Program-made: the position numbers and the translations under genes
Shown here: positions 46,878 through 49,761 of the stretch, one piece after another
Layout: every line of letters begins with the position of its first letter
How positions within the stretch are numbered: the stretch's first letter is position 1
Notes under the pieces: generated by a model
Databases searched by the model: none
What the model saw: the letters and a program-made list of their open reading frames with translations, nothing else
Told to the model about the DNA's origin: nothing
Assembly: GCA_025059875.1 (NCBI GenBank)
Contig: JANXCT010000001.1
Span: forward strand, 1 to 64,000
DNA: 64,000 bases
Direction of reading: 5' to 3'
From: Candidatus Kapaibacterium sp.
GTDB taxonomy: Bacteria; Bacteroidota; Ignavibacteria; Kapaibacteriales; HRBIN21

Positions 46878-47177
46878 CTTTCCTCCCCCTCAGTATAGCA
46901 CTAACACGCCGTAGCTGCCAGCACTGCCATCTCCACTCGTCACCTGCCGCCCAGGCTTCTTAAGCTCACAGTCCCTGAGGGACATAAGGATGGCATCCAG
47001 CCGCTCCAGACTCAGAGCTCTCTGCACGGCCTTCGGCTGTTCCGCTTCTTCAATGTGGCTACGCTTCAGCAAAAGGCACAAAATTAGCACGTCCCGAAGC
47101 CGGCCCTTGCGGAGCGATCCTGCGGTGCCTAATGCAGTTGTAACACTCGAGGCCCCTTCAGGTTTAATACGAGCAGC
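46878..47177. other. mgtE leader and mgtE/sigma intergenic region
   Basis: 300 bp with no convincing gene. The minus strand gives the long mgtE leader, including a small perfect hairpin GTCCC-TGA-GGGAC (46971-46983). A 66-aa minus-strand open frame (46890-47090) runs through it, but its start overlaps the -7 box, so it would not be translated from there. No M-box magnesium riboswitch features were recognised. On the plus strand, TGTAAC (47139-47144) could be an ECF-type -35 for the sigma gene; no -10 was confirmed. Confidence 0.4.
47079..47086 (-). promoter_or_regulatory. mgtE promoter -7 box
   Basis: TAATTTTG on the minus strand (47086-47079), about 200 bp before the mgtE ATG. No clear -33. 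Confidence 0.4.
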
Positions 47178-47780
47178 ATGCGGCGTACTCTTCCGCCCTC
47201 ACTGCCAGATGAGGAGCTCTTCAGGCTCCTAAGGTCGCCAAACCGTCGGCAGGCAGAGGCGGCCTTTCGTGAACTGTACGATCGGCATGCTCCACGGATC
47301 TACGGCTACTGTACCCGCATCTTAGGAAGCCGTTATGATGCCCAGGATGTGCTCCAGGAAACCTTCGTGCGGTTCTGGCAAAGCGCACAACAGGAGCGCA
47401 CCATGACGAATGTCGCTGCTTTCCTTTTGCGGATTGCACGGAACCTGTGTCTGAACTTCAAGCGTGACAACCGCTCTCCTGTCCCCTTCGACGAGGAGCT
47501 CTATGAGCTCCCAAGTCCTTCCCCCTCTGCTCAAACAGAGCAAGCAGAGCTTCAAACCCTACTCCAGCGGGCAATAGACCTGCTTCCGTTGGAGTACCGA
47601 GAGGCCCTTATCCTCCGTGAGTACATGGGCATGCCATATGCCCAGATTGCTGAGCTCGTTGGTGCCAGCGAAACGGCTGTTAAGGTCCGGGTCTTTCGGG
47701 CGAAGGAAAAGCTCCGTCAACTGCTAGCACCTTACGTTGCAGAACTGCGTTCGTCTGGACTATCCCCACAGGAAGAGTGA
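47178..47780 (+). CDS. ECF-family RNA polymerase sigma factor
   Basis: 200-aa sigma factor with only regions 2 and 4. Region 2 (about 27-95) has FRELYDRHAPRIYGYCTRIL and DAQDVLQETFVRFW, which melt and bind the -10 element. Region 4 (about 125-180) has LPLEYREALILREYMGMPYAQIAELVG, followed by SETAVKVRVFRAKEKLRQLL for -35 binding. The membrane gene 3 bp downstream is the natural anti-sigma candidate. A TGTAAC stretch upstream could be its own target (weak). Confidence 0.93.
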   Translation: MRRTLPPSLPDEELFRLLRSPNRRQAEAAFRELYDRHAPRIYGYCTRILGSRYDAQDVLQETFVRFWQSAQQERTMTNVAAFLLRIARNLCLNFKRDNRSPVPFDEELYELPSPSPSAQTEQAELQTLLQRAIDLLPLEYREALILREYMGMPYAQIAELVGASETAVKVRVFRAKEKLRQLLAPYVAELRSSGLSPQEE

Positions 47781-47783
47781 GCC

Positions 47784-48884
47784 ATGGCGTCCGAACGAGA
47801 CCTTCAGCACCTCCACGAACTATTGGAGGGTGACCTCCCTGTGGAGCACGAGGAGAAGCTCTTCTGGCGGTTGGCGACGGAGGAGGATCTCCGCATAGCA
47901 TTTCGACAGCTCCTCCTTCTTCACCGCCTACTGCCACACACTTCGCCACCGTTACCTCCAGAGGTGGAAGACGCTATCGTAGAACGGCTAGGATTCCGAC
48001 GGCGCACGCCGACCCGTCTCCAACCGTGGATTGTCGGCACGATATCGGCTCTGCTGGGAGCTGGAGTAACAGCCCTCGTGCTGTTGCAGTTCTTCAAGGC
48101 GCCAGCCGTGCAAGTTCGCACTCTCCCGTCCCCCGCACCGATAGAAATCGTTCTCCACGCACCCGTCCCTGCCAGTACACGAGCGGAGGCAAGCAGTCCA
48201 AGGGGGAAAGGCCGTACTACACCTTCCGCCGAGACGGCATCTGAACTCAGCACTGGTAGTGAACCGATCTCTGTTTTACTCCAGACGAGTTCCCTTCGGA
48301 GGGCACTGCCAGTCCTTCCGCAACGAACATTCGACGAGTTGCCCTACCAACCCCTACCCTCGCAGCCGTCACCTCTGGCTCCCGTCCTACAACGATCGGA
48401 ATCCGCAGTAGGACTCGCTTCACCATGGGTGAGCATACGCACTATTGGAATCTGGGAAGCCAGCAGCCCGGATATCATGCTGCCAAGCCGTGCACCCTTC
48501 GGAATCCGGAACGTCGCTGCCGGAGTCTTCACCACTGTAACCCCAGAGCATTCCGTTGGCCTAGAGGTGGGTAGCGAGACGTTTCCGCAAGAATTCACAA
48601 CCCGTGAGGGCGCACTATACCGTCAGCGGCCAACACTCCTCTGGGGAGGCCTATCGTACGAATGGTCCCCCGAGGTCTCCCCTACTCCTTTCATGCGCAT
48701 GACCCTTGGGGGTACAGTCGTCGGTCCATTAGCTAAGATGTGGCTGGGCTTGAAGGTGCCTCTCGGCGCGAGCACCCAGGCTGCAATCGGGCTTGAGGGG
48801 ACGGCTCTCTTCTACCGCCTCGATAACCGGTGGTTTGTCACCCGGAAAATTGGGCTGAGCTATGGCATGGCGCTGGGCCGTTAA
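47784..48884 (+). CDS. putative anti-sigma factor with C-terminal beta-barrel-like domain
   Basis: 366-aa protein. Residues 1-80 are soluble, charged and helical, with a Leu-rich LRIAFRQLLLLHRLLP. Residues 81-104 form one clear membrane helix (PWIVGTISALLGAGVTALVL). A Pro/Ser/Thr linker (105-210) follows, then about 150 residues with alternating polar/apolar strands, such as IRNVAAGVFTTVT, HSVGLEVGSETF, LLWGGLSYEWS, MWLGLKVPLG, AAIGLEGTALFY and RKIGLSYGMALG. These look like an eight-stranded outer-membrane barrel. Position after an ECF sigma gene and the single helix suggest an anti-sigma role. No zinc-type HxxxCxxC motif is visible. A soluble periplasmic beta domain is the alternative. Confidence 0.65.
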   Translation: MASERDLQHLHELLEGDLPVEHEEKLFWRLATEEDLRIAFRQLLLLHRLLPHTSPPLPPEVEDAIVERLGFRRRTPTRLQPWIVGTISALLGAGVTALVLLQFFKAPAVQVRTLPSPAPIEIVLHAPVPASTRAEASSPRGKGRTTPSAETASELSTGSEPISVLLQTSSLRRALPVLPQRTFDELPYQPLPSQPSPLAPVLQRSESAVGLASPWVSIRTIGIWEASSPDIMLPSRAPFGIRNVAAGVFTTVTPEHSVGLEVGSETFPQEFTTREGALYRQRPTLLWGGLSYEWSPEVSPTPFMRMTLGGTVVGPLAKMWLGLKVPLGASTQAAIGLEGTALFYRLDNRWFVTRKIGLSYGMALGR

Positions 48885-49479
48885 GCTGATCTCCCTTGGC
48901 TATGCCGTATGGACTGGGGGGTGCGTTTCCCCAGAGGAGCTCCCTACGGAACGGGAAGTCCTTCCTCCGAAAGTCCTGCTAGTACTTGAGGAGTCTAGCA
49001 TCCGCTGTGAGGTCCAGCACCGCAGCGACACGTTCACATGGACGTCGTATGCGGTGAATCTGGGAGAGGCCTCCATAGACACAAGCCGGGGGAGCGAGAG
49101 CCTCTACCTTGCCGCTCTGCTCTGGTCTGTGGGCTCACCCGCGGACTGGCCCGCAGGGATAGATTCCATTGAACTCCGCATCTCCGGACTCCGGAGTGGC
49201 TTCTTAGCTGATGACCTGAGCTCTATCCAGTCTCTCCGGCTCATCTCCTGGGAACGGAAGCGCCGAGCCGTGGTACGACGAGTCTTAAGCTGGCAGCAGG
49301 GCCGACCGGTACCGAAGCACCTGCGGCTCCGATACCAATTGATACGTGCGCTGGGTCCTTCCCCCCGCTGGATTCTTACCTTCTCCTTCCTGGTCACGCC
49401 ACCCCATCCCGACGAAGGCCCGAAGGACGATGCACCTATCTTGCGACTCCATGTCATGCTATCGCTGAAACCCCGGTAG
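48862..49479 (+). CDS. lipoprotein of unknown function
   Basis: 205 aa. A signal peptide ends in a lipobox (VWTGGC, Cys near residue 21), so it should be a lipid-anchored envelope protein. After the Cys it has strand-like segments, but I recognise no family. It starts inside the anti-sigma/barrel gene (23-bp overlap), so the three genes from 47178 form one translational unit. It may be the outer sensor or partner of the barrel protein (inference). Confidence 0.65.
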   Translation: MAWRWAVKLISLGYAVWTGGCVSPEELPTEREVLPPKVLLVLEESSIRCEVQHRSDTFTWTSYAVNLGEASIDTSRGSESLYLAALLWSVGSPADWPAGIDSIELRISGLRSGFLADDLSSIQSLRLISWERKRRAVVRRVLSWQQGRPVPKHLRLRYQLIRALGPSPRWILTFSFLVTPPHPDEGPKDDAPILRLHVMLSLKPR

Positions 49480-49519: not shown

Positions 49520-49594
49520 GGTCGCTTAGCTCAGTTGGTCCAGAGCGTCCGTTTCACACGCGGAAGGTCGGTGGTTCGAATCCACCAGCGACCA
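49520..49594 (+). tRNA. tRNA-Val (CAC)
   Basis: 75-nt cloverleaf: acceptor GGTCGCT/AGCGACC, D arm GCTCAGTTGGTCCAGAGC, anticodon arm TCCGT-TTCACAC-GCGGA (anticodon CAC) and T arm GGTTCGAATCC. No CCA encoded. The 167 bp to trpS contain no gene; CATGTTTG (49688-49695) is one base off the -7 consensus. Confidence 0.96.
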
Positions 49595-49761
49595 CAGAGC
49601 GATGGGAGGTCGCGGAGACCTCAAAGAAGCCAACGTTCCCACCGTAGAAAGCCCCCACACCAATCCCTTGCCCTCCCTCCCGTCGCTCATGTTTGCGCAA
49701 TAGCGCTACAGAATCGTTCGTCCCCTGGCTCCGCATCGGGTTGGACAGGGAAACGCTACGG

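Follow-up and report, generated by a model that had tools for sequence, protein, structure and literature searches.

The window analysed here comprises the first 64,000 nucleotides of contig JANXCT010000001.1 (assembly GCA_025059875.1) from Candidatus Kapaibacterium sp., a bacterium that NCBI places in the Bacteroidota. On its forward strand the window carries an ECF sigma factor gene, a gene for a 366-aa protein that is predicted to combine an anti-sigma-like domain with a beta-barrel, and a lipoprotein gene (Table 1). A first-pass annotation, made from the sequence letters, had described a sigma factor with regions 2 and 4 only, a 3-bp gap to a second gene encoding 366 aa, and an overlap of 23 bp between the latter and a lipoprotein gene with the lipobox VWTGGC; the open reading frames reproduce this layout exactly, and Pfam recognised Sigma70_r2, Sigma70_r4_2 and nothing else in the sigma factor. 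The NCBIfam matches of the sigma factor are to generic ECF families only, and neither the 366-aa protein nor the lipoprotein matched any Pfam or NCBIfam family. Upstream of the operon, on the opposite strand, lies an ORF that by eye appears MgtE-like; downstream are a tRNA-Val gene (49520-49595) and a further ORF that, again by eye, looks like trpS.

Table 1. Genes and predicted features of the operon, with positions in the window.
Feature	Position	Strand	Description and basis
Predicted autoregulatory ECF promoter	47140..47169	+	-35 GTAAC (47140-47144), 17-bp spacer, -10 GTTTAATA (47162-47169)
ECF sigma factor gene	47178..47780	+	200 aa, regions 2 and 4 only; both Pfam domains above cut-off
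Predicted Dma-like dual membrane-spanning anti-sigma protein	47784..48884	+	366 aa; architecture and sigma linkage (86/87 loci)
N-terminal cytoplasmic anti-sigma-like domain (predicted), residues 1-75	47784..48008	+	four AlphaFold2 helices; weak family and PDB profile matches
Single transmembrane helix (predicted), residues 81-103	48024..48092	+	AlphaFold2 helix; hydrophobicity peak
Disordered Pro-rich periplasmic tether (predicted), residues 104-214	48093..48425	+	111 aa, 16% Pro; pLDDT mostly <50
C-terminal 8-stranded outer-membrane-type beta-barrel (predicted), residues 215-366	48426..48881	+	AlphaFold2 strands; structure matches
Lipoprotein gene	48862..49479	+	205 aa; lipobox VWTGG/C, Cys21 lipidation site; beta-rich mature domain 37-204
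Conserved post-lipobox peptide CVSPEELPTERE, lipoprotein residues 21-32	48922..48957	+	consensus in the Dma-linked lipoproteins of the order

Predicted architecture of the 366-aa protein

The AlphaFold2 model of the 366-aa protein was built from 13 sequences, and its overall pTM is low (0.44) because of the linker. The model places helices at residues 4-14, 20-32, 34-49 and 59-68, a region whose profile weakly matches the anti-sigma factor DdvA (8rlz_A) and RseA (1or7_C) in the PDB, and the N-termini of relatives show weak Pfam matches to zf-HC2 and RseA_N. These similarities weakly suggest an anti-sigma-like domain, which would bind the sigma factor. Hydrophobicity peaks at residue 83 (mean 2.24 over 19 residues), in agreement with the single predicted membrane helix. 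Beyond the linker, eight strands are predicted between residues 215 and 365, in a block with pLDDT mostly 74-96, and the top structures returned by VIA-align for about residues 210-366 are Legionella porin III and the barrels of PagL (Z 13.8), NspA (13.6), OprF (13.3) and OmpA (13.0), all at Z 13-14. The C-terminus is therefore predicted to form an eight-stranded barrel of the OmpA/PagL type. Soluble calyces (avidins, PsbO) rank next at Z about 10, and the outer-membrane reading of this barrel rests also on the single-pass anchor, on C-terminal Phe residues (38 of 73 relatives) and on the analogy to Dma proteins. Both the order of the parts and a barrel of about eight strands after residue 210 had been anticipated in the first-pass annotation, which suggested that one polypeptide may span both membranes; the predicted helix, long tether and C-terminal barrel support that suggestion.

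The relatives add further detail to this picture. Across the same 73 proteins the tether varies from 99 to 197 aa, never falling below 99, and the barrel is nearly constant at 152-165 aa; a minimum linker length combined with a near-fixed barrel length is as expected of a protein that spans the periplasm. In the window genus, the five members whose C-terminus is complete have R or P as their last residue.

Two assignments to other known systems were tried and rejected. The operon resembles FecI/FecR/FecA in pairing an ECF sigma factor with a single-pass inner-membrane anti-sigma protein that would receive a signal from the outer membrane; however, the operon contains neither a FecR domain nor a TonB-dependent receptor gene, FecR is absent from the families matched by relatives, and the barrel lies within the anti-sigma protein itself. 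With RpoE/RseA it shares the ECF sigma factor, the single-pass anti-sigma protein and a weakly RseA-like N-terminus, but RseA_N stayed below the Pfam cut-off (best E 0.011, in 4 of 30 relatives, and no match in the window protein), no RseB-like gene was recognised in the operon and the C-terminus is a predicted barrel. We know of no outer-membrane barrel in RseA.

Recurrence of the operon and its predicted promoter

A scan of the contig database with the single protein sequence found no relatives; for the pattern search an alignment of 30 rows was too divergent and one of nine rows was usable. The nearest named relatives in that database are MAGs of Candidatus Kapabacteria and Candidatus Kapaibacterium, and Bacterium HR21. 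Within the order, relatives are present in 58 of the 61 genomes searched, and the window genome holds one copy of the family. A Kapabacterial genome of about 7.9 Mb (G020) yields at least 18 Dma-like matches, which marks a strong expansion in that lineage. When 296 genomes of the phylum were searched with a profile of 30 relatives, the full-length matches were almost confined to the order, a nearly full-length match was found in one genome of the same class outside it (G252), and most matches elsewhere in the phylum covered the N-terminal part alone. Beyond the order, two loci from genomes of this class (L200:1986-2654 and L203:1362-2054) have a sigma gene followed by relatives of 222-230 aa that consist of the N-terminal part and no barrel; these are possibly truncated or ancestral forms. 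A sigma gene lies directly upstream in 86 of 87 Kapabacterial loci, so the gene order for which the first-pass annotation proposed to search related genomes does recur across the order, and gene order and architecture are more than a product of chance.

Directly upstream of the sigma gene, six congeners share a conserved block, CGTAAC ... GGGTTATTA, and the rest of the region aligns poorly. Across the order, 24 of the 86 regions preceding the sigma gene contain GTAAC-N14..18-GTTA, 23 of them with a spacer of 17; shuffled sequences would give 0.32 such matches, and the opposite strand has none. In the window copy GTTA is replaced by GTTT, preceded by T instead of C, and the strict pattern misses this copy; in the six genomes of the genus this pattern retrieved the operon's own promoter in five and one extra site in each of two, and looser patterns would drown in chance matches. 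The conservation of the promoter points to autoregulation, and the survey as a whole supports autoregulation together with a probably small regulon. Since the predicted -10 element ends only 8 bp ahead of the sigma start codon, the mRNA would have almost no leader, unless translation in fact starts at a codon further in.

In several families a gene for a large surface protein comes after the Dma operon (L045:6024-8378 and L037:6989-9520, with similar downstream genes in L036, L039 and L044). Scans of two of these surface proteins showed Ig-like domains, CarboxypepD_reg domains and a type IX sorting domain (Por_Secre_tail), and such a protein is likely to be a member of the regulon. A search of the window genome and three congeners, run without a positive control, found no homologue of the 785-aa surface protein that other loci encode.

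The third-gene lipoprotein and the Dma systems of Bacteroides

A homologous lipoprotein gene is present in all five other genomes of the window genus and is adjacent to the anti-sigma gene in four of them; in the fifth it lies on another contig, and the anti-sigma gene is cut by the contig end. Across the order, a called lipoprotein lies downstream in 74 of 87 loci versus 10 of 176 control same-strand neighbour pairs from these loci, a difference for which a Fisher p-value overstates the evidence, the 87 loci being mutually related. The linkage holds over many families and paralogues, and among the 13 loci in which our rule called no lipoprotein, two (L106 and L162) show a lipobox by eye. The association of a lipoprotein with the sigma/anti-sigma pair, noticed at first in a single locus, is thereby extended to the order. 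This recurrence is the main observation that we add, and it suggests that the lipoprotein is a regular component of such systems.

The part of these lipoproteins that is shared lies next to the lipid anchor, where the consensus in the order is C-x-S-P-x-D-[LIV]-D-x-x-R, with P at +4 in 51, D/E at +6 in 52 and R at +11 in 41 of 74 sequences. Pro at +4 is rare among the other called lipoproteins of these loci (6 of 54), and of the eight controls that match the motif at least four adjoin Dma genes. The rest of the chain is varied and includes the window-genus type, a 170-aa type and types with ASH/HYDIN Ig-like domains; between the lipoproteins of the window genus and those of family f2, similarity disappeared once the first 16 residues were removed, and no homology was detectable beyond about that point. 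The AlphaFold2 model of the window lipoprotein has a mean pLDDT of 79.8 and a pTM of 0.70. Assignment to a fold family was dropped, as its best matches (OmpA, BcnB/BcnA and YceI) reach Z of about 8-9 and Foldseek returned no match below 0.001.

Dual membrane-spanning anti-sigma (Dma/Das) systems have been described in gut Bacteroides (PNAS 2024; J Bacteriol 2026), and their properties are cited here from PMC13088901. According to this source, Dma1 and Dma2 of Bacteroides thetaiotaomicron consist of an N-terminal anti-sigma domain, a transmembrane helix, a disordered tether and a beta-barrel, and each has a cognate ECF21 sigma factor. When dma2 is deleted, the operon to which it belongs is strongly induced, and the vesiculation phenotype of this deletion requires das2. 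The third gene of the dma2 operon, BT_1557, encodes a DUF4943 protein (log2FC 6.0 on Dma loss), whose lipoprotein nature goes unremarked in the passages of PMC13088901 consulted. Deletion of BT_1557 in a dma2 mutant left vesiculation unchanged, a test that is blind to a sensing role because Dma2 is already absent, and that gives a partner role no support. In the dma1 mutant nigD1 is induced, and the dma1 vesiculation phenotype depends on nigD1 (PMC13088901).

The likeness to the window operon is close. In Dma2/Das2 (BT_1558/BT_1559) and Dma1/Das1, as in the window, an ECF sigma factor is directly followed by a protein combining an N-terminal domain (anti-sigma in Bacteroides, weakly anti-sigma-like in the window), a transmembrane helix, a long disordered tether and a barrel, the last three predicted in the window; in the dma2 operon the third gene also encodes a lipoprotein, and the operon itself is among the most induced targets (PMC13088901). 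The statement of the first-pass annotation that no system with this three-gene design had been described therefore does not hold. In two genomes carrying orthologues of the dma2 operon we read the order sigma factor, Dma2, DUF4943, followed by DUF4858 and nitronate monooxygenase-like genes. The BT_1557 orthologues carry a lipobox, a DUF4943-type lipoprotein lies downstream in 30 of 30 Bacteroides Dma2 loci, and these lipoproteins share a conserved start, typically C-x-E-E-x-L-D-Y-N-x-P-D-V, in which acidic residues at +3/+4 are common. Taken with the Kapabacterial count, this indicates that a lipoprotein gene repeatedly accompanies Dma-type systems. In three longer Bacteroidota Dma loci a NigD-like gene adjoins the sigma gene (L209:4994-5710, L210:879-1601 and L214:4971-5705).

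The sequences themselves differ. Compared as profiles, the Kapabacterial proteins and 30 Bacteroides Dma2 sequences show no detectable similarity in the N-terminus, which looks RseA/zf-HC2-like in Kapabacteria, and a weak match in the barrel (E 2.8e-4, probability 41%, 51 columns); the window lipoprotein does not match DUF4943 and is not recognisably related to the lipoprotein of the dma2 operon. The window protein is thus a divergent or convergent variant, to which function is carried over from Dma2 by architecture, not by demonstrated homology. Judged by its architecture, the operon is a divergent version of the recently described Dma kind, and it is real, well-formed and widespread.

Proposed mechanism and alternatives

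We propose that the operon is a Dma/Das-type unit that signals from the outer membrane to the cytoplasm, and we give this reading, together with the mechanism that follows, a probability of roughly three in four. The helix at residues 81-103 would anchor the 366-aa protein in the inner membrane, and the cytoplasmic N-terminal domain would bind the ECF sigma factor and keep it inactive. On the periplasmic side, the disordered linker would bear the eight-stranded barrel, which is expected to be inserted in the outer membrane. There the lipoprotein would most likely partner the barrel, docking via its conserved anchor-proximal peptide, and its variable outer domain may do the sensing or act as the effector. 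If the outer membrane changes, so that the barrel is not inserted or the lipoprotein/barrel complex is altered, the anti-sigma protein would most likely be lost or proteolysed. The sigma factor freed in this way would transcribe mainly its own operon, using the GTAAC-N17-GTTA promoter. A comparable pairing of a lipoprotein with a barrel is known for RcsF of Escherichia coli, in which the lipidated N-terminal region is on the surface and a part of the protein is trans-lumen (PMC4942254). The window operon may similarly use a lipoprotein/beta-barrel pair to take outer-membrane information inward, but RcsF works with separate barrels and serves the Rcs stress response, whereas here the barrel forms part of the anti-sigma protein.

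A serious alternative, to which we assign somewhat less than an even chance, is that the lipoprotein is an output of the sigma factor, kept adjacent as its main target, rather than a partner of the barrel. The surface proteins of other loci offer a parallel, as in family f2, where the fourth gene encodes a surface protein of 773-789 aa (Por_Secre_tail and Ig-like domains in the one scanned), and the strong induction of Bacteroides Dma-linked genes on Dma loss (BT_1557, and nigD1 in the dma1 mutant; PMC13088901) agrees with such a role. However, the most conserved part of these otherwise unrelated lipoproteins is the anchor-adjacent peptide, which suits a shared binding partner better. It is rather unlikely, in our view, that the barrel acts without a ligand and reports its own insertion into the outer membrane, such that BAM failure would expose the beta-signal, the protein would be degraded and the sigma factor freed, with the lipoprotein only a member of the regulon. 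The near-fixed length of the barrel and its conservation throughout the order, the Phe with which 38 of the 73 barrels end (the classic end of outer-membrane proteins) and the weakly RseA-like N-terminus would be consistent with such a role, but a genome may hold 18 or more paralogues, of which those examined mostly have their own sigma factor and lipoprotein, which suggests different signals and not one general assembly check, and the window-genus barrels do not end in F. Quite improbable is that the post-lipobox peptide is a mere sorting or surface-export signal of the lipoproteins of the phylum, unrelated to Dma: Bacteroidota do have short acidic signals for export directly following the lipidated cysteine, and the Bacteroides Dma2-linked lipoproteins are often acidic at +3/+4, but both the scarcity of Pro at +4 in other lipoproteins of these loci and the position of at least half of the motif-matching controls beside Dma genes argue against it.

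It has long been asked how signals cross the entire Gram-negative envelope, and, of the anti-sigma factors described, only Dma proteins are known to us as candidates for doing so in one chain. The present analysis finds their architecture to be widespread and multi-copy in Kapabacteria, and the promoter motif provides a handle for finding targets. As a more speculative extension, which we regard as doubtful, Dma systems may be three-component modules in which exchangeable lipoprotein sensors plug into an anti-sigma-linked barrel via the anchor-proximal peptide, like a covalently wired RcsF/OMP pair, the same module having been put together in both Kapabacteria and Bacteroides around anti-sigma domains that are unrelated. 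The lipoprotein with its conserved anchor-proximal peptide is a likely missing partner of Dma systems.
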